Of a stretch of 64,000 bases of DNA, positions 37,240-56,573 are shown piece by piece; the stretch's first letter is position 1, and each line of letters opens with the position of its first letter. The stretch lies in assembly GCA_902610175.1 (NCBI GenBank), contig CACLUR010000001.1, forward strand, positions 248,001-312,000, given 5' to 3'. The DNA comes from an uncultured Alphaproteobacteria bacterium (GTDB lineage: Bacteria > Pseudomonadota > Alphaproteobacteria > HIMB59). The position numbers and the translations under genes are program-made. The notes beneath the pieces are model-generated. The model was not told where the DNA came from. It searched no databases and was given only the letters and a program-made list of their open reading frames with translations.

Positions 37240-37387
37240 AAATAAAATATACTTTGGAAATACATGCTCTAAAAAGTATTAAAGTTGTTTATAACTTGAT
37301 TTCAATTGGATTATTAAGTTATTGCAAATTGTAAGTTGAAATAATACATTTTAAGTTCACTTGAAAGATCGCTCAAAGGAGGATGAA
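37240..37387 (+). promoter_or_regulatory. Upstream region of the sugar ABC ATPase gene
   Basis: An AT-rich gap of about 150 bases that must hold the promoter. A half-site TGAAAT (37338-37343) followed by ATTTTA loosely resembles the operators upstream of the SorC gene. The ribosome binding site AAAGGAGG (37375-37382) lies five bases before GTG 37388 and decides that start over the TTG at 37361. Confidence 0.4.
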
Positions 37388-38467
37388 GTGGCAGATATAA
37401 AAATTGATAACATAAATAAGTTTTATGGTGACGTCCAAGTTATCAAAAATGTTTCTTTAGAGATTAAAAGTCAATCCTTTACAGTATTAGTAGGTCCCTC
37501 TGGTTGTGGAAAATCTACAATGCTGAGAATGATTGCAGGTTTAGAGGATATAAACTCAGGTACAATTTCAATTGATGGCACAGTAGTAAATGACTTACCG
37601 CCAAAAGAAAGAAATATCGCAATGGTATTTCAATCTTATGCCTTGTACCCTCACATGACTGTATTTGATAACATGGCATTTGGATTAAAATTAGAGAAGA
37701 GATCTAAAGAAGAAATAGATGAACGTGTTCAAGAAGCTGCAAAAATATTGCAAATTGAAGAATACTTATCTCGTAAGCCGAAGCAATTATCTGGTGGTCA
37801 AAGACAAAGGGTTGCTATAGGAAGAGCTATTACAAGAAAGCCTCAAGTATTTTTATTTGATGAGCCATTATCAAACCTTGATGCTGCTCTCAGAGTTCAA
37901 ATGCGTGTTGAATTAGCTAAGCTACATGACAGGCTAAATGCGACCATGATATATGTAACGCATGATCAAACTGAAGCAATGACGATGGCTGATGACATTG
38001 TTGTTCTTAATAATGGTGTTATTTCACAAAAGGGATCACCATTAGAGCTTTACAATGATCCGGATAATTTGTTTGTAGGAGGCTTCATTGGATCTCCTAA
38101 GATGAATTTTATTTCTTCAAAAATACTCAGTGCAAGTAATAGCAATACAGAACTTGACTTGTTAGGTTCATCCAAAATAAATGTACCAAAAAGTTTATCT
38201 AGCGCAACAGAGGGTGACTCAGTTATGTTAGGAATTCGACCTGAACATCTAACAGTCAATGAAGATAGTGATGGCAGTTGGGAGAGTAAGGTGTTTGTTG
38301 TAGAAAAACTTGGATCTGGAACTTTTCTTTACCTTGAAAAAGAGGGAGAACCTTTAGTTGTTCAAACAGAGGGAGACTCCAACATTAAAGTTGGGGATAC
38401 TGTCAAAGTTGGCTTTTCTTCATCTCGTTGCCATATCTTTAATAGCTCTGGACAAGCTTTTAAATAG
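37388..38467 (+). CDS. ugpC: CUT1 sugar ABC transporter ATP-binding protein (MalK/UgpC type)
   Basis: 359 residues from GTG 37388. Walker A GPSGCGKST, Q-loop VFQSYALYPHMTV, signature LSGGQRQRVAIGRAI, Walker B VFLFDEPLSNLD and the His-loop VTHDQ are all intact, followed by a C-terminal TOBE/regulatory domain with GIRPEHLTV. It energises import of a sugar, polyol or glycerol phosphate. It is the only CUT1-type ATPase in the window, while two CUT1 permease pairs are present, so it probably serves both. The symbol reflects the family, not proof of substrate. Confidence 0.9.
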   Translation: MADIKIDNINKFYGDVQVIKNVSLEIKSQSFTVLVGPSGCGKSTMLRMIAGLEDINSGTISIDGTVVNDLPPKERNIAMVFQSYALYPHMTVFDNMAFGLKLEKRSKEEIDERVQEAAKILQIEEYLSRKPKQLSGGQRQRVAIGRAITRKPQVFLFDEPLSNLDAALRVQMRVELAKLHDRLNATMIYVTHDQTEAMTMADDIVVLNNGVISQKGSPLELYNDPDNLFVGGFIGSPKMNFISSKILSASNSNTELDLLGSSKINVPKSLSSATEGDSVMLGIRPEHLTVNEDSDGSWESKVFVVEKLGSGTFLYLEKEGEPLVVQTEGDSNIKVGDTVKVGFSSSRCHIFNSSGQAFK

Positions 38468-38500
38468 TTTAAATGTATTACTAATTGATAAAGGGGATTG

Positions 38501-39265
38501 ATGTTTTTAGACAAATTTAAATTGGAGGATAAAATTGCTCTCATCACTGGAGGTACAAGAGGTATAGGTTTATCTATAGCTCATGCTCTTGGTGAAGCAG
38601 GTGCAAAATTAGTTTTAGTTAATAGAACAGACCCGGTTGGAGGAGTCCAAGAACTAAAAGATGCCGGATACGATGTAAATTTTTTTGAAGGAGACTTGCT
38701 TGACCGTTCAGTTCCTCAAAAGACTATTGACTTCACATTAGAAAAGCATGGAAGAGTAGATATTCTTGTAAACAATGCAGGTGTTGCTCAGCACGGAGAC
38801 ACTGAAAAATTTAATGATGATTTATTGGATAAAATTATGGATCTGAACGTGGATGCCGTTTTTCGCATGTGTCGCTCTGCTATCCCCCCTATGAAAAAAC
38901 AAGGTGAAGGTGTTATTTTAAATATTGGATCTATTTCTGGTTTGGTATCTAATATCCCCCAGCCCCAAACTGCTTACAACGCCTCAAAAGCTGCGGTGCA
39001 TATGATGACAAAAAGCTTAGCTAGTGATTATGCTGATCAAAATATTCGCGTAAACGCAATAGCCCCTGGTTATATAAGAACAGAAATGACTAACTTACCT
39101 AAGGAAAATGAACATTGGTACCCAACTTGGAATGAGCTGACGCCGATGAATAGGATGGCAGAAACACATGAGGTTGCTTCTGCTGCTCTTTTTTTATGTA
39201 GCCCTGCATCAAGTTACGTCACTGGCGAGGTATTAGTAGTCGATGGTGGATACACTACTAGATAA
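38501..39265 (+). CDS. Short-chain dehydrogenase/reductase, copy 1
   Basis: 254 residues, ATG 38501 behind AAGGGG. Classical SDR: TGGTRGIG cofactor motif, NNAG, catalytic Ser in SISG, YNASK and C-terminal VDGGYTTR. Probably oxidises a polyol or sugar acid imported by the neighbouring transporter. It is nearly identical over long stretches to the minus-strand SDR at 44872-45636, forming an inverted repeat. Confidence 0.88.
   Translation: MFLDKFKLEDKIALITGGTRGIGLSIAHALGEAGAKLVLVNRTDPVGGVQELKDAGYDVNFFEGDLLDRSVPQKTIDFTLEKHGRVDILVNNAGVAQHGDTEKFNDDLLDKIMDLNVDAVFRMCRSAIPPMKKQGEGVILNIGSISGLVSNIPQPQTAYNASKAAVHMMTKSLASDYADQNIRVNAIAPGYIRTEMTNLPKENEHWYPTWNELTPMNRMAETHEVASAALFLCSPASSYVTGEVLVVDGGYTTR
38705..38934. 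repeat. Inverted-repeat arm within SDR copy 1
   Basis: Two exact-match tracts with the opposite-strand SDR lie here: 38705-38796 (92 bases) and 38858-38934 (77 bases), corresponding to 45341-45432 and 45203-45279. The two gene copies have equal length with no indels. Confidence 0.85.
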
Positions 39266-39316
39266 AAGATACTAAAACATATATCGCTATTTTTATCTAT
39301 TTAATATATTCAACAG

Positions 39317-39348
39317 TGAAATATATTTCTAATCTGAAATTTATTTCA
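39317..39348. promoter_or_regulatory. Tandem palindromic operators upstream of SorC regulator 1
   Basis: TGAAATATATTTCT (39317-39330) and TGAAATTTATTTCA (39335-39348), 18 bases apart, in the 118-base gap before the SorC gene. The same pair recurs before the binding-protein gene. A further inverted repeat AATCAAA / TTTGATT (39356-39362, 39371-39377) overlaps the expected start-proximal region. Confidence 0.65.
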
Positions 39349-39383
39349 TTGAATTAATCAAATATATGTGTTTGATTACCTAA

Positions 39384-40328
39384 ATGAAAAGTGATGATAC
39401 AAAAGTACTTGATGAAGCACTTATTTCTAAAAAATGCGCATGGCTTTATTATGTAGGAAAACTAAATCAAAATCAGATAGCAAAGAAAGTAGGTCTTAGC
39501 AAGATGCGAGTGCATAGGTTAATTGCTTTCGCAGAAAAAAAAGGCTTCGTAAAAACTTTTGTTGAAGGCGGCTTTGATGAAACTTCAAAATATGAAAATA
39601 TTTTAAAAGAAAAATATCACTTAAAAATTAGTGAAGTTATTCCAATTGAAGATGTAAATAAAGATCCAAATGAAATGATAGGTGCTGCTGGTGCTAGATT
39701 TATAATGAATCAAATTAATGAAAAAAACATAAATGAATTTGGAATAGGAACAGGCAATACTCTAAACAAAATAGCTAAATGGCTGCCTAAGATAAATAAA
39801 AGAATTGATTTCATAACAGTTAATGGATCTCTAACTTCTCACAATTCAATACAAACTGAAACAGGTATTAATCAAATAGCTCATAAAACCAATGGTGAAT
39901 GTTATAATGTTGGTATTCCATTAATGGTTGAGTCGATTGATCAAAAAAAGATTTTAGAAAAAATAAAATTTATAAAAGAAATAATGAATAGAGCAAATAA
40001 TACTAAAATAAAAATAGTAGGTGTGGGTGGATTGTTTGAAACCTCGCAGATAGTTAAGTCTAAAATTTTTAGCAAAGAATCAATAGAAAAAATTAAGAAG
40101 GCTGGAGCTGTTGGAGAGGTTGCAGGTAATTTTTTTGACAAAAATGGGAAATATATCTCTATTAAGGAGACGCAGAAAATAACTAGTGCAGATATTGAGT
40201 CTTTCAAGAAATCAACAACTGTATTAGTTGCTGGCGGCAGGCAAAAAATCTCACAAATAAAATCAGTCTTAAAAAGTGGCTTATTTACTGGATTAATTAC
40301 AGATGAAGAAACAGCAAAACAACTCTGA
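39384..40328 (+). CDS. SorC-family sugar-binding transcriptional regulator 1
   Basis: 314 residues. The N-terminal HTH is NQNQIAKKVGLSKMRVHRLIAFAEKKGFV; the rest is the SorC sugar-phosphate-binding domain with GIGTGNTLNKIAKWLP, a GEVAGNFFDKNG segment and VLVAGGRQKISQIKSVLKSG. It probably controls the adjacent CUT1 operon through the paired palindromes before itself and before the SBP gene. The inducer is unknown. Confidence 0.88.
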   Translation: MKSDDTKVLDEALISKKCAWLYYVGKLNQNQIAKKVGLSKMRVHRLIAFAEKKGFVKTFVEGGFDETSKYENILKEKYHLKISEVIPIEDVNKDPNEMIGAAGARFIMNQINEKNINEFGIGTGNTLNKIAKWLPKINKRIDFITVNGSLTSHNSIQTETGINQIAHKTNGECYNVGIPLMVESIDQKKILEKIKFIKEIMNRANNTKIKIVGVGGLFETSQIVKSKIFSKESIEKIKKAGAVGEVAGNFFDKNGKYISIKETQKITSADIESFKKSTTVLVAGGRQKISQIKSVLKSGLFTGLITDEETAKQL

Positions 40329-40374
40329 AATAAAATAAAATACAAGTTTCCTTTTATTCAATATTTATCTAAAA

Positions 40375-40407
40375 TGAAATATGTTTGACTCATTGAAATT
40401 TATTTCA
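40375..40407. promoter_or_regulatory. Tandem palindromic operators upstream of the CUT1 binding-protein gene
   Basis: TGAAATATGTTTGA (40375-40388) and TGAAATTTATTTCA (40394-40407); the second is identical, all 14 bases, to the site at 39335. The pair spacing (19) matches that upstream of the regulator. A strong AGGAGG ribosome site follows before ATG 40439. Confidence 0.65.
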
Positions 40408-40438
40408 AAGTTAAGCATTTCTTTATAGGAGGAAAATA

Positions 40439-41863
40439 ATGAAAAAACTACTATTTGCCTTGGTGGCATCCATCTTCTCCTTTTCAGCAATGGCTGGCGG
40501 TCATGCTGATTGGTTTAAGGAAGCCGGTGCTCCATACAAAGGGACAGTTCTACAGGGTGTAGCTGAAAATACACCTCCAGGACAGTTTGCAGGTGAAGTT
40601 TTAGCAAAGGAATTTGAAAAGCTCACTGGCATCAAAGTACAATTAGAGAATACATCATGGGATCAGATGTATGATAAAGCGATTAAAGATATGGAAGCTA
40701 ACTCAGGTATCTACGACTTTGTTTATATCGAACAGGACATTGTATATGACTACCTAAACAGAGACTTCTTGGTTAACATTACAGAAGGTCTAGCTAGTAA
40801 TCCAAATCTTCAAGCACCCGGTGTCAGTCTAGATGACTTCACAACATTCATCGATTATTTCAAAGATGATACTGGTGATGTTTTTGGTGTACCAATGGAA
40901 GCATTCATTAAGGTGTACTTATACAGAAAAGATCTTTTTGAAAGAGCCGATGCAAAAGCAGCATTTAGAGCTCAGTACGGATATGGTCTTTCTCCAGCAA
41001 CTTCTTTTGATCAGTACAGAGACAATGCTGAGTTCTTTACTCACTTCTGTGCAGAGCAAGGAATGGAATGTTGGGGAACAACTGTTCAAGGACACACTGG
41101 TCACCCAGCATCAACTTATGAGTTCCTAGAGTCAATTGCACCATCTTTTGGTCTTTATAACTGGGGTGTAAATATGGATACATATCAATCATGTGTTGAA
41201 AATGGTGGACAGTTAAACGGTGGTAGAGCAAAAGCTGCTCTTAACTTCTGGACACAATTATTACCATTTGCTCCACCTGAAGCTCTTCAAAGTACTTGGA
41301 GTGAAGTTGGATCATCTTTTGCTGCAGGAAGAGCTGCGCAAGGATGGGTATATGGTGAAAATGCTGCATGGATTGCTACAGATGCTGAAAAATCTGCAGT
41401 TGTCGGTAACGTCGGTGTAATGCTACCTCCTACAGCGCCTGGTGTTATGACACAAGCTGCAGCTGGTAATGGTTACATTGGTTACTATGATGGAGGTGCT
41501 TATGGTATTCCTCACTCATCTAAGAACAAAGAGGCAACTATGCTATGGTTGCAATTTGTTGCAATGAACGAGCACCAAGCTGATTGGGCAATCGCAGGCG
41601 GACGTATTACACACAAGGATACATATGCTGACCCTAAAGTTATGGCTGTTGACGAGCAAGCAGACGGTTACTTTACTCTTATGAGAGATACTGGCTTTTT
41701 ATACGCTGGTGCTCCTCCGTTCCCATTCCATGGTGCGGGAAGAGGTGCTATTGACCCATTCATTTACAGTGCTTTAGCAGGTGAAATGACTCCTGAAGAA
41801 GCTCTTGATGGTGCGTGTCAAGCATTAGACACAGTAATGGCTGACCTCGGTTACCAAAACTAA
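40439..41863 (+). CDS. CUT1 ABC transporter substrate-binding protein 1
   Basis: 474 residues with a signal peptide (1-19, FSAMAGG). This is a family 1 solute-binding protein: early motif [24 protein letters not shown], hinge [21 protein letters not shown], and [21 protein letters not shown]. The codon use and G+C are higher than in neighbouring genes, as expected of a highly expressed protein. The substrate is not decidable from sequence; neighbouring polyol dehydrogenases suggest a polyol or sugar. Confidence 0.9.
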
Positions 41864-41874
41864 TAATACTTCAA

Positions 41875-41899
41875 AACGGGAGGTGTTACACCTCCCGTT
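41875..41899 (+). terminator. 11-bp hairpin between SBP and permease genes
   Basis: AACGGGAGGTG / CACCTCCCGTT with a three-base TTA loop and no following T run. It is likely an intercistronic stabiliser or attenuator that lets the SBP be made in excess of the permeases. Its stem contains GGGAGG. Confidence 0.7.
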
Positions 41900-41908
41900 C
41901 CACTCTAA

Positions 41909-42790
41909 ATGCTGTCTAAAAATAAAACTGGCTGGCTACTTTTATCTCCAACAATACTAATTTTAGTTTTAGCAGGCTTGGTTCCTTTCTTTTATGTTTT
42001 GTATGTTGGTTTTTTTCAATGGAACCCTCTCGCAGTTGACCCCTCTCTTCAATTCGATGGATTTGCTTCAAATTATAGACGACTTATTTTTGATGAAATT
42101 TTTTTAGAGTCTATATGGCGTTCAATTAAATTTTCAGTTGTAACATTATCAATAGAACTAACTCTTGGTTTTTTACTTGCACTCTCTTTATTAAGCTCAT
42201 TTCCTTTAAAATCATTTTTTAGAAGTGTGCATACCCTTCCCTTAGTAATTGCTCCTATTGTAGTGGGATCAATTTTTAAATTATTTACAGTACAAGGATT
42301 AGGGCCACTGCCCCACATTTTAAAAGATTATTTTGGTTATACCTTAAATTATGGATTAAATGCTGAACAAGCTTTTTGGATGATTGTAATAATGGATGTG
42401 TGGCATTGGACACCATTTGTAACTTTGACATTACTCGCAGGGTTAAGTGCACTTCCTCAAGATCCCTATGAGTCTGCTAAAATAGATGGTGCAAATAATT
42501 TTCAAATTTTTACTTACATAACTATTCCTATGATGGTTCCTGTTTTAATTGTTGTTATTTTTATAAGATTAATGGACTCCTTAAAAATTGTTGATGAGGT
42601 TTGGATGTTAACAGGTGGAGGCCCAGGGTACGCTACACGATTCACTGGTATTCATATTTGGAAAGAAGTATTTGAAAAAAGATATTATGGACTAGGCTCG
42701 GCAATGTCGATTTTATATTTGTATATCACAATTGTTATTTGTTGGGTCTTATATAGCGTCATGGTTGCAAGAGGGAAAAATGAAGACTAA
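41909..42790 (+). CDS. CUT1 ABC transporter permease 1A
   Basis: 293 residues with six predicted helices. The EAA cytoplasmic loop reads [23 protein letters not shown], typical of binding-protein-dependent permeases. The N-terminus ([29 protein letters not shown]) matches the MalF/UgpA type. It overlaps the next permease by 11 bases. Confidence 0.92.
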
Positions 42791-43634
42791 AAAAACTTTT
42801 GCTAAAATAGGAACTACTTTTTTATGGAGTTTACTTACAATTATCACGTTATTTCCTATTTACTGGATGATTTTAGTCTCAACAAGAACTCCAGTTGAAT
42901 TATTTGGCAAACCAGATTTAAGTCCAACATTTTTTGAGAAAGTTCACTGGAAAAATTTTACAAAACCATTTATTGATGGAATTTATTCTGATTATCTTTT
43001 CAATTCAATTATCGTTGCAACCTCAAATGCAGCTTTAGTGACAGTGCTAGCATTAATGGCTACTTATGCCCTCTCTAGATTTAAGTTGCCCGGATCAGAA
43101 AGTATATTTTTTTGGACTATGACCAACAGAATGGCACCTCCTGCAGCTTTTTTATTGCCACTATTTTTACTGTTTTCGACTGTGTTTAAATTTGGCGACT
43201 TTACTTTATTTGACACAAAAATTGGACTAATTTTATTGTACTGTGTTTTTAATTTGCCCTTTGCTATATGGCTTTTAAAAGGAATAATTGATGGCATACC
43301 AAGAGAGTTAGATGAAGCAATGATTGTTGATGGTGCTAATCTATTTACTATATTTAGAAAGCTAATAATACCATTAGCAGCTCCAGGCATAGCTGTAACA
43401 TCTTTACTTAGTTTTCTATTTGCTTGGAATGAATATTTATTAGCATCAACTCTAACAAGTGTTTATGCGAGAACTATTCCTACCGGATTATCAGAATTTG
43501 TTACTACCACTGGAACAAACTGGGGAACTATGGCTGCAGTAGCTTTGGTGTCGATGTTACCCGCATTATTATTTTTATTTGCAGTTCAAAAACATATAGT
43601 AGCAGGTTTAACATTTGGAGCAGTGAAGGGTTAA
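42780..43634 (+). CDS. CUT1 ABC transporter permease 1B
   Basis: 284 residues from ATG 42780; a longer frame from 42732 would lie far inside the previous gene. Six helices, EAA loop [26 protein letters not shown] and C-terminal GLTFGAVKG, the MalG/UgpE-type ending. It pairs with the preceding permease. Confidence 0.92.
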
Positions 43635-43635
43635 T

Positions 43636-43815
43636 ATGAAAAAAAGAGGTTTTATTCCCATAAATACAAATTGGTTTGATAGGTTGTTTATTGGGGTAAT
43701 AAGTTACGTTGCATTACAGTTATTTTGGATGAGATTTCTGGAAAGCTTCGTGTCATTAAATTTTGCAATAGGAATAGGTATATTGTGGATAATTTTTGTT
43801 ATTTGGAAAGGATAA
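43636..43815 (+). CDS. Small two-helix membrane protein of the transport operon
   Basis: 59 residues from ATG 43636 (MKKRGFIPINTNWFDRLFIG...WIIFVIWKG). It has two hydrophobic segments (about 17-33 and 40-57). It starts two bases after the second permease and ends six bases before the zinc dehydrogenase. Small DUF2160-like proteins hold the same position in glycerol-type ABC operons (GlpU slot), though this one is shorter. Probably a transporter accessory. Confidence 0.65.
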   Translation: MKKRGFIPINTNWFDRLFIGVISYVALQLFWMRFLESFVSLNFAIGIGILWIIFVIWKG

Positions 43816-43821
43816 AGTAAT

Positions 43822-44865
43822 ATGAAAGCTCTAGTATTAGAAAAGCAATTAGAATTACAATTGCGTGATATTGATTTGCCAACAGAGGTAGGTCCTGATG
43901 ATGTTAAAATAAAAATGCATACAGTGGGTATCTGTGGTTCAGATATTCATTATTATGAGCATGGTAAAATAGGTCAATGGCATGTCAATGCCCCAATGGT
44001 TTTGGGCCATGAAGGATCTGGTACAATTATTGCTGTCGGGGAAAATGAAAAAATATTGAAAGTTGGTGATAGGGTTTGCATCGAACCCCAAGTGGTCAGT
44101 AAAAAATCAAAGGAATATAAATTAGGACTTTATAATTATGATCAAAAAGTTAAATTTTGGGCAACGCCTCCTATTCATGGGTGTCTAGCACCAGAAGTTG
44201 TATTTCCTGGTGATATGGTTTTCAAAATTCCTGATAATCTCTCTTATGCAGAGGGTGCTATGGTTGAGCCTTTAGCTGTTGGTATGCAAGGGGTCACCAA
44301 AGCAAAGATAAAACCAGGTCAAATAGGGTTAGTCATGGGTTGTGGCCCTATTGGGTTAGTTACTGGCTTAGCTGCATTAGCGGGAGGTTGTTCCAAAGTT
44401 TATATTGCTGATGTTTTGGCAGAAAAATTAAAAATGTGTGAACATTACCCTGATTTAATTCCTGTGGACTTAACAAAAGAGAGTTTATCTGAAAGAGTCA
44501 TGGATGATACAAATGGGTGGGGTGTTGACCGCTTTTTTGAATGTAGTGGTGCAGTCAAAGCATATGAGTCAATTTTTTCATGTTGCTCACCAGGGGCTCA
44601 TGTCGTACTCATAGGTAATAACGCAGAACCTGTGCCAATGAATTGGGCTATTTTATTTGCCAAAGGATTAGAGTATCAAACTGTTCATAGATATTCACAT
44701 CAATATGAGCCCTCTATTAGATTATTGGGTAGTGGAAAAATTGATGTCAAACCAATGATCACTCATACTTTTAAGTTTGATGAGAGTGTTGAAGCTTTTG
44801 AAAGGGCTGCTGAACATAGACCAACAGATGTTAAACTTCAAATTAAAATAGACGAAGAAAATTAA
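43822..44865 (+). CDS. Zinc-dependent polyol (xylitol/sorbitol-type) dehydrogenase 1
   Basis: 347-residue medium-chain dehydrogenase. Catalytic zinc ligands are in GICGSDIHYY (Cys39) and GHEGSG (His), the NAD site is GCGPIGLV, and VEPLAVG is the typical loop. The structural-zinc four-cysteine lobe is absent: the segment after IEPQV lacks the Cys cluster. Likely oxidises a polyol carried by the adjacent transporter. It is a direct-repeat paralogue of 49885-50916. Confidence 0.88.
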   Translation: MKALVLEKQLELQLRDIDLPTEVGPDDVKIKMHTVGICGSDIHYYEHGKIGQWHVNAPMVLGHEGSGTIIAVGENEKILKVGDRVCIEPQVVSKKSKEYKLGLYNYDQKVKFWATPPIHGCLAPEVVFPGDMVFKIPDNLSYAEGAMVEPLAVGMQGVTKAKIKPGQIGLVMGCGPIGLVTGLAALAGGCSKVYIADVLAEKLKMCEHYPDLIPVDLTKESLSERVMDDTNGWGVDRFFECSGAVKAYESIFSCCSPGAHVVLIGNNAEPVPMNWAILFAKGLEYQTVHRYSHQYEPSIRLLGSGKIDVKPMITHTFKFDESVEAFERAAEHRPTDVKLQIKIDEEN

Positions 44866-44871
44866 TGCAAA

Positions 44872-45636
44872 TTATCTAGTAGTGTACCCACCATCGACTA
44901 CTAATACTTCGCCTGTGACGTAACTTGATGCAGGGCTACATAAAAAAAGTGCAGCCGAGGCTATTTCATGAGGTTCTGCCATTCTAGTCATTGGTGTTTG
45001 TTTACTCCAAGTAGAATACCAATGCTCATATTTTTTTGGTAAGTTTGTAATATCAGTTTTGACATAACCAGGGGCTATTGCGTTTACTCGGATATTTTGA
45101 TTAGCATAATCACTAGCTAAGCTTTTTGTCATCATATGTACTGCAGCCTTTGAAGCATTGTAGGCTACTTGTGGTTGGGGTATGTTGGAAGCTATACCAG
45201 ACATAGATCCAATATTTAAAATAACACCTTCACCTTGTTTTTTCATAGGGGGGATAGCAGAGCGACACATGCGAAAAACTACGTCTACGTTAACATCCAT
45301 AATTTTATCTAACATATCATCATTAAATTCATCCGTATCACCGTGCTGAGCAACACCTGCATTGTTTACAAGAATATCTACTCTTCCATGCTTTTCTAAT
45401 GTGAAGTCAATAGTCTTTTGAGGAACTGAACGATCAAGCAAATCTCCCTCAAAAAAAGTAATATCAAAGTTAGCTTTTGAGAGCTCTTCTATTCCACCTG
45501 TTGAATTATCTCTATCTATTACTACTAATTTTGCACCTGCTTCACCAAGAGCGTGAGCTATAGATAAGCCTATCCCTTTTGCGCCTCCTGTAATTAGCGC
45601 AATTTTGTTATTAAGTTTAAATTTATCAAAAAACAA
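44872..45636 (-). CDS. Short-chain dehydrogenase/reductase, copy 2
   Basis: 254 residues, same length and near-identical sequence to the SDR at 38501 on the other strand; differences cluster in the first 50 residues (cofactor end) and around 195-215 (substrate lid). TGGAKGIG, NNAG, YNASK and VDGGYTTR are intact. It is convergent with dehydrogenase 1 (six bases) and follows SorC regulator 2 in the second CUT1 operon. Confidence 0.88.
   Translation of the reverse strand: MFFDKFKLNNKIALITGGAKGIGLSIAHALGEAGAKLVVIDRDNSTGGIEELSKANFDITFFEGDLLDRSVPQKTIDFTLEKHGRVDILVNNAGVAQHGDTDEFNDDMLDKIMDVNVDVVFRMCRSAIPPMKKQGEGVILNIGSMSGIASNIPQPQVAYNASKAAVHMMTKSLASDYANQNIRVNAIAPGYVKTDITNLPKKYEHWYSTWSKQTPMTRMAEPHEIASAALFLCSPASSYVTGEVLVVDGGYTTR
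45203..45432. repeat. Inverted-repeat arm within SDR copy 2
   Basis: Counterpart of 38705-38934; exact tracts at 45341-45432 and 45203-45279. The arms flank about 6 kb holding SorC 1, the CUT1 module and dehydrogenase 1. Confidence 0.85.
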
Positions 45637-45653: not shown

Positions 45654-46631
45654 TTATCCCTCTAAAATATGTTTCGCAGCTTCTTCATCAGTAATAAGAC
45701 CAAATAAACATCCGTTCAATAAAACAGACTTAATAGCAGATGCTTTTTGGGTACCGCCAGCTATGGCTATAGTTTTCTTCTTTTTTATAAGCCTAAAGTC
45801 TTTACTCACAATTTCATCATAAACAATATGTTTCCCTTTTATATCAAAAAAATTACCACTAGACTCTGCATGCGCTCCATCTTTTTTAATTTGATTAAAA
45901 GTTTTTTTATCAACTAGATAAGGATGGTTTTTTACTCTGTTATATAAACTAGTACCACCTTTCATAGAGCCAATTCCCAATAATATATAATCACATTCTT
46001 CTTCTTTTTTCAGAACATCTTTTACAAATTTCAAATTAAAAAATTTATTTTTTTCGCTTAAAGATGGAAAAATATAAGGAGCTCCTAAATGGTAACATTT
46101 GCCTTGAGTTTTTTTCGAAAGTGTATTTAAACCCAAGAGTGGGTTGAAAGACAAATCATTTCTTAAAGAGCCAGTAGTATCGACAAAACTTACAGGTTCT
46201 CTAATTTCTGGGAGTATGTTGGCAATTTTTGTATTTGTTGAGCCAGTAGACCATCCAAAATTTCTACATTTTTCAATATTTATTTTATTAAGTAGGGTGT
46301 TGGCACCAGCGTAAGCAATTGATAATGGATCAGGATCAAGGGTTTCTGCCGTAGTTTCTTTACTAAATGTGCTTTCAGTTGGAACAACTTCGATATGTTT
46401 AAGGCCATATCTCTTTTTAATCGACTCCTCGTATTGCCTGCAAATATCAAACGACCCCTCTACGAAAACTTTTACTGATCCTCTTTTTTCAGCATCGTTA
46501 AGAATACGATGAACCTGAACAGTATTAATATTAAATTTTTTTGCAATATCTTTTTGTGATATTTTTTGTTTCCAATACATCCATGCAATTCTGTTAGTAT
46601 ATTGTTTCAGATTTTTTTCTGATCTATTCAC
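45654..46631 (-). CDS. SorC-family transcriptional regulator 2
   Basis: 325 residues: N-terminal HTH (KISQKDIAKKFNINTVQVHRILNDAEKRG) and SorC effector domain with FGWSTGSTNTKIANILP, AESSGNFFDIKGKH and IAIAGGTQKASAIKSVL. It is a paralogue of SorC 1. It starts next to the stop of permease 2B, so regulator and SDR 2 are the last genes of the second CUT1 operon. The likely operator is the long palindrome at 49807-49837. Confidence 0.87.
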   Translation of the reverse strand: MNRSEKNLKQYTNRIAWMYWKQKISQKDIAKKFNINTVQVHRILNDAEKRGSVKVFVEGSFDICRQYEESIKKRYGLKHIEVVPTESTFSKETTAETLDPDPLSIAYAGANTLLNKINIEKCRNFGWSTGSTNTKIANILPEIREPVSFVDTTGSLRNDLSFNPLLGLNTLSKKTQGKCYHLGAPYIFPSLSEKNKFFNLKFVKDVLKKEEECDYILLGIGSMKGGTSLYNRVKNHPYLVDKKTFNQIKKDGAHAESSGNFFDIKGKHIVYDEIVSKDFRLIKKKKTIAIAGGTQKASAIKSVLLNGCLFGLITDEEAAKHILEG

Positions 46632-47453
46632 TTAATTTTTTACTGCGCCTAGAGTTAAACCGGAGACTATATTTTTCTGGAGGAATATAGTCAATAATAT
46701 TGGAGGGATACTTTGAATAACAGTTGCAGCTGCAACATTACCCCAAATTATTTGTGCTTGACTTACTTGCGCAGAAATAAAAATAGGAAATGTTCTAGAC
46801 TCCGATACTGTAAAAAATAATGCAATTAATAATTCATTCCAACTAAATATAAAAACAAATATTGCAACAGTTGCAATTCCACCTTTGGACAGCGGTATAG
46901 CAATTTTCAAAAAAATGTGGAACCAAGAAGCACCTTCAATTCTTGAAGCTTCAATTAAATCATATGGGATTTTTTTAAAAAATGATGCTGAAACCCATAC
47001 AGCAAATGGAATATTAAAAGCAGTGTAAACTATCACTAAAGCGAAAAGGGAGTCTAATAAATTCAAATATTTGAATAAAATGAATAATGGCACTGCAGCC
47101 GCAACAGGGGGCAACATTCTTGTACTTAAAATCCAATCAGCTAAAAAGAACCTGCCTTTAAATTTGAAAAAAGTTAGACCAAACGCTGTAGGTAAAGAAA
47201 AAAAGAGAGAAACAATAGTTGAGCAAATTGTTACTATAATTGAATTTAATAAATAAGTGTAACTCTCAGATAACATAATAGTAAAGTTTTTAATATATGA
47301 AAAATCAGGTATCCATACTGGGGGTAAAGCGAACATTGCGTTTTGACTCTTAAATGAACCAAATAACATCCAAAGATTAGGGGCTAAAAATATAAGAGTA
47401 ATGAAAGTAGCAATAATTAGTAAAATTGCTTTTTTTCTAATTGAGGCCTTCAT
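46632..47453 (-). CDS. CUT1 ABC transporter permease 2B
   Basis: 273 residues, MalG type: six helices, EAA loop YDLIEASRIEGASWFHIFLKIAIPLS and the terminal GLTLGAVKN. It overlaps the upstream permease by 17 bases. Confidence 0.92.
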   Translation of the reverse strand: MKASIRKKAILLIIATFITLIFLAPNLWMLFGSFKSQNAMFALPPVWIPDFSYIKNFTIMLSESYTYLLNSIIVTICSTIVSLFFSLPTAFGLTFFKFKGRFFLADWILSTRMLPPVAAAVPLFILFKYLNLLDSLFALVIVYTAFNIPFAVWVSASFFKKIPYDLIEASRIEGASWFHIFLKIAIPLSKGGIATVAIFVFIFSWNELLIALFFTVSESRTFPIFISAQVSQAQIIWGNVAAATVIQSIPPILLTIFLQKNIVSGLTLGAVKN

Positions 47454-48330
47454 TTCTCTCTACCCTTCGTAAAAGCGTTACTGCAATTGTTGTTACAATT
47501 AAACTAATAATAAGAATGATCACTGCGGATGCAGATCCTGTTCCAATTTGAAAACTTCTAAATTCAGTTCTATAAGTAAAAAATGCCATCACTTCTGTAG
47601 CTATACCTGGACCACCTTTTGTCGTTATATATATAATGTCGAATAAGCGAATACACTCGATTAGCCTTAGAACTACTCCTAATAATACAAAGCTCAAAAT
47701 AGATGGTATTTCAATTTTTGTCATAACATGAAACCAATTCGCACCATCTATTTTTGCAGCTTCATATTGTTCATTTGGAACAGTCATCAATCCAGCAAGT
47801 AAAAGTATCATCATAAAAGGTGTCCATTGCCATGAGTTGATTACTATAATTGAAATCTTAGCTGGTATAGGCTCGCCTAAATAAGCGAAAGGCTCAATAC
47901 CAAAAACAGTGTCTAAGATGTAACTAAAAATGCCAAGTGTCGGGTTTAAAATATATAAAAAAACTAACCCTACACAAAGTGGTGTTAACATAATAGGCAT
48001 AATCGTTACTGTTCTTAAAGCATTAGAAAACTTAATGTGTCGTATCTCAAAAAAAATTTTAGCCATTATAAAACCTAAAATTATTTCAATCGTAATTGAG
48101 CTAAAAGCAATCATAAATGTATTTTTAATTGCAGTAGGGAAAGTATCGTCCTCAAATAAAAGTACCTGATAGTTCTCCCATCCAATAAAGAATTTCTTAT
48201 GCATCTTCGTTAACTTTGCTTGAAATAAGCTAAGATAAACTGAGTATAAAAAAGGAAAAATAGATATTACAAGCAGAAAGAGGCACGTTGGTAAAATAAA
48301 TAAAATCTTTTGAATTTTTTCACTTTGCAT
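47437..48330 (-). CDS. CUT1 ABC transporter permease 2A
   Basis: 297 residues, MalF type: N-terminal helix ILFILPTCLFLLVISIFPFLYSVYLS and EAA loop EQYEAAKIDGANWFHVMTKIEIPS. It is separated from its SBP gene by 72 bases containing a strong hairpin. No ATPase is encoded in this operon. Confidence 0.92.
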   Translation of the reverse strand: MQSEKIQKILFILPTCLFLLVISIFPFLYSVYLSLFQAKLTKMHKKFFIGWENYQVLLFEDDTFPTAIKNTFMIAFSSITIEIILGFIMAKIFFEIRHIKFSNALRTVTIMPIMLTPLCVGLVFLYILNPTLGIFSYILDTVFGIEPFAYLGEPIPAKISIIVINSWQWTPFMMILLLAGLMTVPNEQYEAAKIDGANWFHVMTKIEIPSILSFVLLGVVLRLIECIRLFDIIYITTKGGPGIATEVMAFFTYRTEFRSFQIGTGSASAVIILIISLIVTTIAVTLLRRVERNEGLN

Positions 48331-48363
48331 TATTTAAGTGTCTTTTGATAGTTTTAATTTAAA

Positions 48364-48392
48364 TGCTTGGGCTTTATAAAAAAGCCCAAGCA
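48364..48392 (-). terminator. 12-bp hairpin between SBP 2 and permease 2A
   Basis: TGCTTGGGCTTT / AAAGCCCAAGCA with a five-base loop, perfectly paired. It lies 10 bases after the SBP stop on the transcribed strand and about 34 before the permease start. Probably a partial terminator or mRNA stabiliser setting SBP excess. Confidence 0.75.
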
Positions 48393-48402
48393 ATGTTTTT
48401 AT

Positions 48403-49740
48403 TTAATCAATGTATCCTTCAGATTTAAGGAGTCTATCGATTTTTTTATTAGCGGTATCCATCGCTTCTTGAGCAGATGATTCACCTGTAAGAGCTTTAT
48501 TAACCTCAATACCTAGAGTTTCAATTAACTCAAAAGTTAACGCATGTCTTGGTCTTAGTTCTTGCCAAGCTCTTAAGCTTGACTCATATAGAACTGGTGT
48601 CCATGGCTGTTCAGCATTAATTTGAGGGTCATTCATTGCTGAATGTCTGCTAGGAGGAGCGCCTGCTAAAACCCACTCTCTGTGAACTTCTGGGCTTGCA
48701 AACCACTTCAGGTAATCCCAAGCAGCTTCCTTGTTTTTGGAATGTTTATTTACACAAGCAATCCAACCTCCAACTGGTGGAACTGACTCAGCTCCTGCAG
48801 CGTGAGGAAATAATGCTACTCCAAATTTTCCCTTAACTTTACTAATTTCAGGATCATTAAATAGAGGAGTTCTCACAGACCAGTTATTGATCATCGCAAC
48901 TTTTCCTTGAGTAAATGCTTTAGCTCTCTCGTCCCAAGCATACTGCTCAACACCAGGAGGCATGTAGTTTATCATCTCTTGCATCCACTCAATAAATGCT
49001 ACAGACTCAGGAGAGTTATAAAGACCTCTTTGGTCTGCATAAGCATCTGGGGAGCCAGGGAAGTTACTTTCCCATGGTTTTCCACCTGCAGAGTAAATCC
49101 ACTCATAGAATTGTTGTCCAGCAGCACTACCACGTGCCATATTCATAGCATATCCACCCTCTAGATCTGGGTATTTCGGATTATCTTTGAATAATTTTGC
49201 AGCAGCTAAAACATCATCAAATGTTTTTGGGGGTTCTAAACCCTCTGCTTCAAATAAATCAGTTCTATAGTGAAGCATGTGCCAATAACCACCGAATGGT
49301 AGGCATTGTTTCTTATCATCCCATATAGCTTGACCAGCAAATGAAGAGATATAGTCATCCCATGCAACTATTGATTGATCTGTGCCTTCAGCAGTCCAAA
49401 TATCCTCAACTGGCTCGATACAATCTGCCTCAACAAATTCTCCAATCCAAATACCATCGACAAATAAGACGTCGTAAGATCCGTCATTTTGAGAACAAGC
49501 AACAATTTGCTTTTCGTGAAGTCCATCATATCCAAAACCTTCAACTGTAACTGAGGCGCCAGTTACTGCTTCAAATTGTGGAGATATTTCTTTAACAGCA
49601 TCAATATAGGGGTCCATAATTGACTGAACCTTTAAATTGTAGCCACTGTGATCACCAAGTTCATCTTCCCAATTTACAGCTAATAGGCTGTTCAAAGGAA
49701 AAATTAATAGTGAAAATGTAAGTAAGATTTTCCTTAACAT
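48403..49740 (-). CDS. CUT1 ABC transporter substrate-binding protein 2
   Basis: 445 residues with a signal peptide (about 1-21, FPLNSLLAV). Family 1 SBP features: ISPQFEAVTGASVTVEGFGYDGLHEKQI, CLPFGGYWHMLHYRTDLFEAEGLEPP and GGWIACVNKHSKNKEAAWDYLKW. The product is clearly different from SBP 1, so the two systems likely take different substrates. It heads the second operon and is divergent from dehydrogenase 2. Confidence 0.9.
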   Translation of the reverse strand: MLRKILLTFSLLIFPLNSLLAVNWEDELGDHSGYNLKVQSIMDPYIDAVKEISPQFEAVTGASVTVEGFGYDGLHEKQIVACSQNDGSYDVLFVDGIWIGEFVEADCIEPVEDIWTAEGTDQSIVAWDDYISSFAGQAIWDDKKQCLPFGGYWHMLHYRTDLFEAEGLEPPKTFDDVLAAAKLFKDNPKYPDLEGGYAMNMARGSAAGQQFYEWIYSAGGKPWESNFPGSPDAYADQRGLYNSPESVAFIEWMQEMINYMPPGVEQYAWDERAKAFTQGKVAMINNWSVRTPLFNDPEISKVKGKFGVALFPHAAGAESVPPVGGWIACVNKHSKNKEAAWDYLKWFASPEVHREWVLAGAPPSRHSAMNDPQINAEQPWTPVLYESSLRAWQELRPRHALTFELIETLGIEVNKALTGESSAQEAMDTANKKIDRLLKSEGYID

Positions 49741-49884: not shown

Positions 49885-50916
49885 ATGAGAGCTCTTGTCT
49901 TAGAAAAAAAATTAGAACTATCTTTAAGAGATATTGATTTACCAGAAAAAGTCCAACCAAATGATGTTAAAATAAAAATGCATACAGTGGGTATTTGTGG
50001 AAGTGATGTCCACTACTATACCCATGGAAAAATTGGACCTTTTGTAGTAGACAAACCGATGGTCTTAGGTCATGAAGGATCTGGAACAATCATAGAGATT
50101 GGTAATAAGGTAACTAATTTAAAAGTTGGCGATAGAGTTTGCATAGAACCTGGGGTTCCAGATATTAATTCAAAAGAATATATAAAAGGTTTATATAACC
50201 TTGACCCTAAGCTTACTTTTTGGGCAACGCCTCCTGATCATGGTTGTTTAACTCCAGAAGTAGTTTTCCCTTCAAATTTTGTATTTAAACTTCCAGACAA
50301 TGTTTCTTATGCAGAGGGTGCAATGATAGAACCACTTGCTGTTGGACTTCAAGCTGCTGAAAAAGCAAAAATTATTCCAGGTGAGAGCGCATTGGTTATG
50401 GGCTGTGGACCAATTGGCCTAGTGATAGCTTTAACTGCTCTTGCTGGTGGATGTTCTAAAGTTTTTATAGCAGACATTGTAAGTAAAAAATTAGAAATGT
50501 GTAAAAATTACAATAATTTAATTCCCATAGATTTGAATAAAGAAAATCCTGCAGAAATTGTAAAAAAGAATACGAACAATTGGGGAGCAAACATAATCTT
50601 TGAAGCTTCAGGAGCAACAAAAGCATACGATGTAATTTTTGACTCTATTTGTCCTGCAGGCAAAGTAGTTATCGTAGGAAATCCTATGAATTCAATACCG
50701 ATGGATTTTGCGACACTACTTACTAAAGAAATTGAAATTAAAACTGTTTTTAGATATGCCCATCAATATGAGAGAGCAATAAATTTATTATCTAGCAATA
50801 AAATTGATGTTAAGCCTATGATTACAGATACAGTTGCTTTTGATGATAGTATAAAGGCTTTCGAAAGGGCTGCTAAAAACTTACCCGAGGATGTAAAAAT
50901 ACAAATTCAACTATGA
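49885..50916 (+). CDS. Zinc-dependent polyol (xylitol/sorbitol-type) dehydrogenase 2
   Basis: 343 residues, paralogue of dehydrogenase 1, with the same landmarks: GICGSDVHYY, GHEGSG, ATPPDHGCLTPEVVFP and GCGPIGLV. It likely converts a polyol to a ketose and heads an operon with an epimerase, a GMC oxidoreductase and a mannitol-dehydrogenase relative. A GGGGAGG at 49854-49860 lies too far (24 bases) to be its ribosome site. It overlaps the next gene by four bases. Confidence 0.88.
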   Translation: MRALVLEKKLELSLRDIDLPEKVQPNDVKIKMHTVGICGSDVHYYTHGKIGPFVVDKPMVLGHEGSGTIIEIGNKVTNLKVGDRVCIEPGVPDINSKEYIKGLYNLDPKLTFWATPPDHGCLTPEVVFPSNFVFKLPDNVSYAEGAMIEPLAVGLQAAEKAKIIPGESALVMGCGPIGLVIALTALAGGCSKVFIADIVSKKLEMCKNYNNLIPIDLNKENPAEIVKKNTNNWGANIIFEASGATKAYDVIFDSICPAGKVVIVGNPMNSIPMDFATLLTKEIEIKTVFRYAHQYERAINLLSSNKIDVKPMITDTVAFDDSIKAFERAAKNLPEDVKIQIQL

Positions 50917-53396: not shown

Positions 53397-54884
53397 TTGA
53401 GTTCAAATTCATCAAACACACTACCTTTAAATGAAAATAATCTTGGATCTGTACAAAGTGCAGTTTTAAAACCAAATTATATTCGATCAAATTTAAGCGC
53501 TGGTATTTTACATATCGGAGTTGGAAATTTTCATAGAGCTCACCTTTCTTGGTACTTACATAGACTTATGCAAAAAAATCTTGCAAAAGATTGGGCTATC
53601 ATAGGATCTGGAATTACAAAATATGATGTAAAAATGAGAGAGAAGCTTAAAACGCAAGACTATCTCACAACATTAATTGAGTTAGATCCTAAAGGAAATC
53701 AATCATGTGAAATTGTTGGATCAATGATTGATTATGTTCCAGTTGAAAAAAATAATCATAAGCTAATTACAGCTTTATCAGATCCAAAAATTAAAATTGT
53801 ATCACTAACTGTTACCGAGGGTGGATATTTTTTAGATGAAAACGGAAAATTTAATATCAATGATCCCAGCATAGTACATGATATTAAAAATCCTGATACT
53901 CCACAAACGGTGTTTGGGGTAATTGTGTCGGCATTGAAAAATAGAAAGAAAAATGATGTTGGACCAATTACTGGATTAAGTTGTGATAATTTGATGCAAA
54001 ATGGAAATAAACTTAAACAAGCTATAATTGGAATAGCAAAGGAACAAGATTTAGAATTATTAGAATGGATTAATCAAAGTTGTACTTTTCCAAATGCTAT
54101 GGTTGATTGTATTGTTCCTCGTACAGGAGAGGTTGAAGTTAATATTGTTAGAAACTTAGGTATTGAAGATCAAGTACCTGTCTCTCATGAGGATTTTCGT
54201 CAATGGGTAATTGAAGATAAATTTTGTAAGGGGCGACCACCTTGGGAAAAAGTTGGCGTTCAATTTTCAGATAATGTTCATGGTTATGAAGATCAAAAAA
54301 TTCGCATACTTAATGGAGGACACCAAATTCTAGCAAATGTAGCTGAACTTTTGAGTATTGAAACTGTTCGCGATGCTATGAAAAATGAAATGATAGTTAA
54401 ACTACTAGAGAAAATTGAAAAAGATGAAATTATACCTCATATAAAACCAGTTCCTGGTTATACTCCAATGGAATACTTCGAACTCATTTCTGCTAGATTT
54501 TCCAACCCCTCTATACAAGATACTATTCGAAGAGTTGCTTTTGATGGCTCTTCACGTCATTCAGGGTTTTTAGTACCATCCATTAAAGATGGTATTGAAC
54601 ACAACATTTCAATAATTGGACTTTCTCTAGCAGAAGCTTTGTGGGCACGCATGTGCGAGGGAACTCGTGAAGATGGCTCTATCATTGAACCAAACGATCC
54701 TCATTGGGAAAAATTAAATATTTGCGCTAAAAAGTCTAAAGACAATCCTCTTAAGTGGTTGGGGCAATTAGAGATTTATGGTGATATTTCTAAAGATAAA
54801 AATTTTTGCGATTCATTTTCGAATTGGCTAAATATGATTTATGAAAGAGGCGTAGAAAACACTCTTAACGAATATCTAAAATAA
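53397..54884 (+). CDS. Mannitol dehydrogenase family protein (polyol 2-dehydrogenase)
   Basis: 495 residues, TTG start behind AGAGGG. NAD site GILHIGVGNFHRAHLSWY at the N-terminus, VTEGGYFLD, and the catalytic Lys-Asn-His motif in KIRILNGGH. Members oxidise mannitol, arabinitol or sorbitol to the ketose, or reduce fructuronate. With two zinc dehydrogenases and an epimerase nearby, a polyol is likely. It is convergent with rhaI. Confidence 0.9.
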   Translation: MSSNSSNTLPLNENNLGSVQSAVLKPNYIRSNLSAGILHIGVGNFHRAHLSWYLHRLMQKNLAKDWAIIGSGITKYDVKMREKLKTQDYLTTLIELDPKGNQSCEIVGSMIDYVPVEKNNHKLITALSDPKIKIVSLTVTEGGYFLDENGKFNINDPSIVHDIKNPDTPQTVFGVIVSALKNRKKNDVGPITGLSCDNLMQNGNKLKQAIIGIAKEQDLELLEWINQSCTFPNAMVDCIVPRTGEVEVNIVRNLGIEDQVPVSHEDFRQWVIEDKFCKGRPPWEKVGVQFSDNVHGYEDQKIRILNGGHQILANVAELLSIETVRDAMKNEMIVKLLEKIEKDEIIPHIKPVPGYTPMEYFELISARFSNPSIQDTIRRVAFDGSSRHSGFLVPSIKDGIEHNISIIGLSLAEALWARMCEGTREDGSIIEPNDPHWEKLNICAKKSKDNPLKWLGQLEIYGDISKDKNFCDSFSNWLNMIYERGVENTLNEYLK

Positions 54885-54895
54885 ATTAATTTTAC

Positions 54896-56185
54896 TTAAA
54901 CAATACCTGAAGAAGAACCACCTTCATTTTTTCTAGTCAATGATTTGTTCTTCTTGTAATCAAGTTTTCGATATGTTTTGATTGGATCGATTGAATTGCC
55001 GTTTTCAAATCGAGCCATAGCAACTATTGGACTAACATCAGTGTTAAAAGCTGTCTTTAAAATTTGCATAGATTGAATAGCATCATTGCTATCTTGAGCT
55101 TTTTCTAGTGAAGAAAAATTAACAAGTAAAGATTTTGTGTATGAGTTGACTATTTCATTTGCACTTGAAATTAAACTTTCAATAGGATCAGTAACATTAT
55201 GTGATTGATCAATCATAAATGCTATATTTTTAATTTTATTATTTTGTGAAGCTGCCGTGAGCTCATTGAATATCAAAAATAATTCATAAGGATTGATGGA
55301 GCCAGCATCTAAATCATCATCGCCAAATTTACTATCATTAAAGTGGAAGCCTCCTAATTTGTTAACATCAATTAATCTTGAAACAATCATTTCTATATTT
55401 GTATTAGGAAGATGGTGTCCTAAATCAACTAAGCACATTGCCTGTTCTCCTAGCTCTTTAGCACAAATATAACTGGTGCCCCAATCACTTATAACAGTAG
55501 AATAAAAAGCTGGCTCATAAGGCTTATGTTCTAACAAGACTATCCAATCTTTAGGAAGAGTGGCATAGATTTTTTTCATAGAGTCAATGTATCTCTCTAA
55601 TGATTTTGAGAAGCTTATCTGCCCTGGAAAATTACCTCCATCGCCAATCCATACTGTTAAGCCTTTAGAACCAAGAGTTTTTCCACTTTCAATAGACTGT
55701 ATGTTCACCTCAATTGCTCTATCTCTAATTGCAGAGCTTGCATTAGTTAGGCTTCCATATTTGAATGTTTCTGGTGCACCTGCTGGATCTTGGAACGTAT
55801 TTGAATTAACAACATCAAAGCCGATGCCGTATCCATCAGCAAATTCTTTTAACTCGGAAAAGTCATCTACATTATCCCAGGGAAAATGAGGTGATACTTT
55901 GTTTGTAAAACCAATCAAATCGTTAATCACAGCACAATCTTCAATTTTATCATAAATATTTTGAGGCTCTCCTATTCCGGGAAAACGGGCAAAACGTGTT
56001 CCCCCTGTTCCAACACCCCAGGTAGGAACAGCAACTTGAAATTTCTTTACTTGATTTAAAATTGATCGGATATCAATTTGATTTTCTTTTAATTTTTTTT
56101 CTAAATATTCAAAATCAAAGTCGAGAGAGGATTTTGCTAACTTATTTTGTTCTTCAATAATTTCTTTTTGAACAGCTTTAAACAT
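54896..56185 (-). CDS. rhaI: L-rhamnose isomerase, RhaI type
   Basis: 429 residues, ATG 56185 (a GTG at 56188 is one codon upstream). Converts L-rhamnose to L-rhamnulose. Metal-ligand segments of the rhaI-type TIM barrel: VLLEHKPYEPAFY, CLVDLGHH and GGFHFNDSKFGDDDLDAGS. The N-terminal VPTWGVGTGGTRFARFPG is typical of this group rather than E. coli RhaA. It is the last gene of the minus-strand rhamnose operon and overlaps the ASRT-like gene by eight bases. Confidence 0.92.
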   Translation of the reverse strand: MFKAVQKEIIEEQNKLAKSSLDFDFEYLEKKLKENQIDIRSILNQVKKFQVAVPTWGVGTGGTRFARFPGIGEPQNIYDKIEDCAVINDLIGFTNKVSPHFPWDNVDDFSELKEFADGYGIGFDVVNSNTFQDPAGAPETFKYGSLTNASSAIRDRAIEVNIQSIESGKTLGSKGLTVWIGDGGNFPGQISFSKSLERYIDSMKKIYATLPKDWIVLLEHKPYEPAFYSTVISDWGTSYICAKELGEQAMCLVDLGHHLPNTNIEMIVSRLIDVNKLGGFHFNDSKFGDDDLDAGSINPYELFLIFNELTAASQNNKIKNIAFMIDQSHNVTDPIESLISSANEIVNSYTKSLLVNFSSLEKAQDSNDAIQSMQILKTAFNTDVSPIVAMARFENGNSIDPIKTYRKLDYKKNKSLTRKNEGGSSSGIV

Positions 56186-56573
56186 CACTCCCCCATCCCA
56201 TTGCAGTCATAAATGCATTGTTTTCTGATGTTGTGTCAAGTCTCGACAGCTGAGCAACAACATTAATACTGCTTTTTAAAACAATCGAATATGGTTTTTC
56301 TCTTGGTAATTTTTGATTGTTAATCTCAATATCATCTAGTCTTAAGTGAATACTTCTTTTACCTTTCATTGTAAAAATATAATTTTCTATAGGATCTTGG
56401 TCTTCATATAAAAAATCTAAAACTATTTCAGCAGAGTTTTTATCGTAATTTATAATACAAAGAGACTCATGACTAAATTGATCTCCGTGATTAGTTGTTT
56501 TATAAGGGTGGCCCTTGGCAGGTAAAAACGCATCAGGGAAAGCCCAAATTTTTTTTCCTAAAGCCTCACTCAT
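56178..56573 (-). CDS. ASRT-family (Anabaena sensory rhodopsin transducer-like) protein
   Basis: 131 residues matching the beta-sandwich ASRT family along its length: GKKIWAFPDAFLPAKG, SHESLCIINYDKNSAEIVLDF, RSIHLRLDDI and the C-terminal VVAQLSRLDTTSENNAFMTAMGW. The family is predicted to bind small molecules, probably sugars; there is no rhodopsin in the window. It overlaps both the permease and rhaI, so it is a full part of the rhamnose operon and occupies the place where other alphaproteobacteria keep a mutarotase (rhaU) or other accessory. Confidence 0.85.
   Translation of the reverse strand: MSEALGKKIWAFPDAFLPAKGHPYKTTNHGDQFSHESLCIINYDKNSAEIVLDFLYEDQDPIENYIFTMKGKRSIHLRLDDIEINNQKLPREKPYSIVLKSSINVVAQLSRLDTTSENNAFMTAMGWGSDV

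Follow-up and report, generated by a model that had tools for sequence, protein, structure and literature searches.

The locus raises the question of whether two paralogous SDR genes lying in opposite orientation on either side of a sugar-transport operon have overwritten each other by gene conversion, and whether recombination between them has inverted the operon. Both genes lie within a 64,000-nucleotide stretch of DNA, here called the window, from a member of the order HIMB59 / AEGEAN-169, and the relatives used for comparison are likewise uncultured alphaproteobacteria, one being the HIMB59 isolate MED-G104.

The locus and its SDR pair

The locus holds one MalK/UgpC-type ATPase, two CUT1 modules (A and B) that have no ATPase of their own and two SorC regulators, together with zinc-dependent dehydrogenases, a psicose-3-epimerase-like protein and a GMC oxidoreductase, the last of these named from sequence. 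Its features are:

37361..38467, plus strand: tfsABC, MalK/UgpC-type CUT1 ATPase, outer neighbour of SDR_A
38498..39265, plus strand: SDR_A, classical SDR of 255 aa, polyol dehydrogenase-like; left arm of the inverted repeat
38705..38796, plus strand: conversion tract 1 in SDR_A, 92 nt, exact match to SDR_B 45341-45432
38858..38934, plus strand: tract 2 in SDR_A, 77 nt, exact match to SDR_B 45203-45279
39188..39265, plus strand: 3' tail of SDR_A, homogenised with the SDR_B tail genome by genome; candidate region of the inversion crossover
39266..44871, no strand: block between the SDR arms, 5606 nt, inverted in the relative L051
39318..39347, plus strand: two GAAATNNATTTC palindromes, 18 bp apart, putative SorC_A operator
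39384..40328, plus strand: SorC_A, sugar-responsive regulator (PF04198)
40395..40406, plus strand: third GAAATNNATTTC palindrome, upstream of SBP_A
40439..41863, plus strand: SBP_A, CUT1 solute-binding protein
41909..42790, plus strand: TM1_A, permease
42732..43634, plus strand: TM2_A, permease, as an ORF with a TTG start
43822..44865, plus strand: XDH_A, zinc-dependent polyol/threonine-type dehydrogenase
44872..45636, minus strand: SDR_B, 254 aa, paralogue of SDR_A; right arm of the inverted repeat
45203..45279, minus strand: tract 2 in SDR_B, partner of SDR_A 38858-38934
45341..45432, minus strand: conversion tract 1 in SDR_B, donor in the window lineage
45654..46631, minus strand: SorC_B, regulator, outer neighbour of SDR_B
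46632..49740, minus strand: second CUT1 module (TM2_B, TM1_B, SBP_B)

The genes are closely packed, with 30 bp between the stop of tfsABC and the start of SDR_A and 6 bp between the 3' end of XDH_A and the stop of SDR_B, and the overlap with TM1_A suggests that the true start of TM2_A lies later than the TTG. In both modules a strong hairpin separates the SBP gene from the first of the permease genes (41872-41902 with 14 pairs, 48364-48392 with 12 pairs), perhaps a transcript-processing or attenuation element that raises SBP over permease expression. An Rfam scan of 36-53 kb of the window gave no match.

The two SDR genes are 83% identical at the nucleotide level in pairwise alignment, while the next SDR in the genome is only 37% identical in protein. 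Their longest exact runs are of 92 and 77 nt; when the alignment columns were shuffled, the longest run was about 29 nt on average with a 99th percentile of 48, and 92 was reached in none of 10,000 shufflings. As a control, the closest other paralogue pair of the locus, XDH_A/XDH_B, is 67% identical, and its exact runs reach 34 nt at most. The earlier note had described two opposed SDR genes of the same length with exact tracts of 92 and 77 bases, which we confirm (255 versus 254 aa), but its term near-identical overstates a pair with 83% overall identity. Its placing of the similarity in the middle and tail, with diverged N-termini, is borne out by identity along the pair, which is 70% at 1-60, 48% at 121-180, 98-100% in the tracts and 94% in the tail. 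The block said to invert, given as about 6 kb, measures 5.6 kb between the arms and about 7.1 kb with both SDR genes counted. As a side observation, the 34-nt exact run between XDH_B (49885-50916) and XDH_A (43822-44865) could reflect conversion there too.

Gene conversion between SDR_A and SDR_B

Gene conversion between the two genes is strongly supported by comparison of genomes. Within genomes, exact runs between the A and B copies reach 92 and 77 nt in the window genome (G000), 62 and 45 in G026, 72 in G015 and 43 and 41 in G005, whereas runs between genomes are mostly 17-40 nt, the exceptions being combinations of G000 with G026 and the pair G046_A:G038_B with 86; permutation of genome labels gave p 9e-4 for this difference. 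In a GENECONV-like permutation test on 374 polymorphic sites, the run of 49 polymorphic sites in the G000 pair was matched in 0 of 3000 permutations, with values of 0.001 for G026 and 0.004 for G015, G000 and G026 being close relatives and hence not independent in these statistics. The pairs of G038, G046, G033 and G012 have no significant within-genome tract.

Tract 1 also points to a direction. Here G000_A is identical to G000_B while G026_A keeps the older bases, and one base is common to both G000 copies and absent from the other copies displayed; the tract is therefore a non-reciprocal overwrite of A by B in the window lineage, after the split of G000 and G026, and it is the one tract on which polarised transfer rests.

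The trees of different parts of the gene conflict in the manner expected of the conversion that the earlier note had suggested, and together with the within-genome tracts and the polarised event they lend that suggestion clear support. Whole-gene trees place A and B in separate clades. In segments 1-204 and 541-675 the B clade is kept and the A copies of G000, G026 and G005 stand together, while in segment 676-765 the SDRs group by genome. AU tests reject the genome-wise grouping in 541-675 (p 3e-4 and 0.002) and the A group in 676-765 (p 0.002).

A separate case is found in G122 (L067), which belongs to the sister family. The genes of its inverted SDR pair, 6458-7219 (minus) and 12430-13194 (plus), lie 5.2 kb apart and match exactly over stretches of 173 and 119 nt within the last 300 nt, with 49-76% identity before them. 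Holding the two G122 genes together is rejected for 1-450 (p 3e-6), and in 457-755 they group together with 100/98 support, which shows a recent and independent conversion of the last 300 nt in a more diverged inverted pair. The B module of L067 is flipped relative to L062.

Function and divergence of the two SDR classes

Both proteins have the SDR fold (Pfam adh_short_C2), and their GSxS and YNASK motifs carry the catalytic Ser, Tyr and Lys. Among solved structures in the PDB, SDR_A is best matched by a putative polyol dehydrogenase and by galactitol dehydrogenase, so that the enzyme likely serves the use of sugar alcohols. Expanded sugar transport has been reported for AEGEAN-169, with sorbitol and mannitol among the predicted substrates (PMC10308909).

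In a comparison of eight A genes (G009_A, G011_A and G012_A being left out) and ten B genes, 17 residues tell A from B, five of them in the cofactor region (19, 20, 41, 43 and 46) and six in 195-213. The cofactor loops read TGGTRGIG...VNRTD in SDR_A (NADP-type) and TGGAKGIG...IDRDN in SDR_B (NAD-type), and the position after the second beta strand is Asn/Ser-Arg in A and Asp in B. An acidic residue at this place usually goes with NAD(H) and its replacement with NADP(H) (PMC9323132). SDR_A would thus be predicted to use NADP and SDR_B NAD, and selection may hold the NADP-type and NAD-type cofactor halves apart.

Gene order in relatives and probable inversion of the operon

An SDR of this kind was found in 11 of 52 genomes of the family, as two copies in 10 of the 11. 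The usual order is tfsABC (plus), SDR_A (minus), SorC_A where present, SBP_A, TM1, TM2 and XDH_A (plus) and SDR_B (minus), after which comes either the B module or GMC. So arranged, both SDRs point the same way (direct orientation), as they do in L052-L056 and L060; whether SorC_A and the B module are present varies from relative to relative. The other family of the order (f2) and most of the genus have a minus-strand SDR_A that points away from the A operon, and this layout is therefore taken as ancestral. The orientation in the window was considered for the ancestral state and rejected, as f2 and most of the genus show SDR_A divergent from SorC_A/SBP_A. The window and G026 (L050) have SDR_A turned round to the plus strand, and the SDR pair of the window lineage is therefore an inverted repeat.

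The inverted arrangement that the earlier note had predicted for a relative is present in G005 (L051, HIMB59-MED-G104), in which the outer genes have the layout of the window and the 5.6-kb block between the SDRs is inverted. In blastn, window positions 38501-45635 form one 7.2-kb minus-strand alignment to L051, flanked by plus-strand matches, with breakpoints at the SDRs; this form comes from one MAG (L051). Starting from the ancestral layout with direct SDRs, a direct inversion of everything from SDR_A to SDR_B was tried as a route and fails to yield the L051 order. Viral contigs scanned for further arrangements held no relatives of the locus.

When a block inverts between inverted repeats of such geometry, their 5' ends remain with the outer neighbours. 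Since the SDR sequences hold to their A or B class as far as about nt 675 of 765, we infer that the crossover took place in about the last 90 nt or just past the stops, the exact point being blurred by homogenisation of the tails within genomes. With the crossover so placed, the inversion would leave the SDR proteins without a swap of halves. It had been proposed that N-terminal SDR halves and promoters are reassorted between the operons; this is not supported, since the 5' ends stay with tfsABC or SorC_B, and half-gene swapping through inversion is rejected on the class signal reaching to about nt 675. What the inversion changes is confined to the orientation of the inner operon and to roughly the final 90 nt of each SDR.

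Parts of the locus have been exchanged between lineages, because G000 and G005 are more alike in patches than in the flanks: their third-position identity rises above that of the flanks in SDR_A and SorC_A, and again in GMC and the genes at 53-56 kb, while TM1_A to XDH_A of G005 have no excess similarity to the window. Exchange of this kind, instead of descent, may have brought the two orientations together. The stretch 53397-56200, just past GMC, has 88% third-position identity to G005 against about 62-65% to closer relatives, and is itself apparently such an exchanged patch.

Mismatch repair and RecA

MutS and MutL restrain recombination between diverged DNA. A search of 162 genomes from the HIMB59 order, of which 20 are at least 90% complete, found a MutS domain in none and a MutL match over the curated cut-off in none, while the controls of these searches gave matches; RecA is present in 6 of 6 genomes tested. 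RecA is likely the agent, and the loss of MutS and MutL from an order that has neither detectably would plausibly enable recombination between the diverged SDR copies. For the inverted tuf genes of Salmonella, loss of mutS raises conversion about 200- to 1000-fold, for example from 2e-6 to 1e-3 per generation (PMC5485169). In SAR11, mutS and mutL are missing, and promiscuous recombination has been reported (PMC12374537).

Competing explanations

The account that we consider quite probable is that of repeated, patchwise conversion of the SDR genes together with a crossover in their tails. SDR_A and SDR_B would be paralogues born within the HIMB59 family that serve two CUT1 sugar/polyol modules; SDR_A would have flipped in the window lineage to form the inverted repeat with SDR_B, and a crossover at the 3' ends would have inverted the 5.6-kb operon on the branch between the window and MED-G104 lineages, through RecA-type homologous recombination free of restraint by MutS/MutL. 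The observations behind it are the tracts, the tree conflicts, the relative with inverted order and the lack of MutS/MutL matches. The SDRs might instead be ordinary paralogues whose identical tracts reflect protein-level constraint in a conserved fold, as residues ~151-180 and 226-254 are indeed conserved in all copies. However, the tracts are identical at synonymous sites too, differ in place between genomes, exceed permutation expectations and are longer within genomes than between them, and the G122 runs of 173 and 119 nt occur despite widely differing N-terminal halves, so that constraint is hardly credible as the cause, ordinary paralogy without conversion being ruled out by the permutation and tree tests.

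It is rather unlikely that conversion is real and the MED-G104 order stems from misassembly of the MAG, or from replacement of the cassette by that of another lineage, instead of from an inversion through the SDRs. In favour of this, the order comes from one MAG, L051, and the locus does contain patches of inter-lineage exchange, but the outer junctions and the inner block are collinear save for the flip, with the breakpoints at the SDRs, and the 3' tails are homogenised just where the crossover is expected. Repeat collapse is an unlikely source of the order because the G005 SDRs share at most 43 identical nt, and replacement sits poorly with TM1_A to XDH_A of G005 being no closer to the window than expected. 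An active switch, with both orientations coexisting in one population and altering transcription of the SorC_A operon, is very unlikely. It would draw on the inverted repeat with its 92-nt exact tract, on both orientations occurring in the genus and on the 200- to 1000-fold effect of mutS loss on inverted tuf genes in Salmonella (PMC5485169), yet the two orientations are seen in different species only, and the operon takes the putative SorC_A operator and presumed promoter along with it, so that a flip need not change expression; among the genes of the locus there is neither a recombinase nor an invertible promoter. It is tempting to speculate, although we regard it as doubtful, that the pair is a lasting recombination joint whose catalytic/C-terminal part is homogenised again and again by conversion, with selection holding the NADP-type and NAD-type cofactor halves apart, and at which the operon is still flipping in living populations.

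Relation to known systems

Homologous recombination between inverted copies of rrn operons, IS elements or prophage repeats turns round the block that they enclose, and the breakpoints fall inside the repeats. The inversion described here is of the same kind, except that the SDR repeats are functional metabolic genes, both of which stay intact because the crossover is close to their 3' ends. Similar too are tufA and tufB of Salmonella, inversely oriented paralogues on one chromosome that exchange tracts at rates restrained by MutS (PMC5485169). However, the tuf genes are separated by 762 kb and differ at only 12 of 1185 nt (PMC5485169), while the SDRs are 17% diverged and 5.6 kb apart, and the SDR pair retains separate paralogue classes. 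Replacement flexible genomic islands of HIMB59, with modules that come and go at fixed loci, have been attributed to homologous recombination (PMC10734472). These islands and the SAR11 findings (PMC12374537) concern the same order and similar streamlined marine bacteria, respectively; those reports deal with phosphate/phosphonate islands and exchange between cells, whereas here paralogues recombine inside a sugar locus. An initial literature search for conversion between bacterial paralogues with inversion gave no match. The process itself is known, and the SDR pair adds a new and well-documented example of it.

Its meaning lies in recurrent conversion between clearly diverged functional paralogues in an abundant, mostly uncultured marine order without detectable MutS/MutL, with one operon inversion in that order attributable to them. 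This makes testable the idea that, once streamlined ocean bacteria have lost mismatch repair, diverged gene copies can serve as points of rearrangement, with selection maintaining what sets them apart in function.

Regulation of the A operon

The palindrome GAAATNNATTTC occurs three times in the window (39318, 39336 and 40395; 0.41 expected), always adjoining SorC_A. It flanks SorC_A on both sides in five of six SorC_A-bearing loci examined and on one side in the sixth (L065), and was found in none of the three examined loci that lack the regulator, which makes it the probable SorC_A operator. Because this operator would travel with the operon, SorC_A control could stay the same after an inversion. 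The flip of SDR_A, on the other hand, takes the 5' end of that gene away from the putative operator and puts it directly behind tfsABC. A promoter scan gave sites no more numerous than in shuffles. Five loci without SorC_A (L052, L053, L054, L057 and L060) have another conserved near-palindrome, TTACAAATGGTCACATTGTAA-like, upstream of SBP_A / SDR_A, which suggests that a different regulator has replaced SorC_A there.
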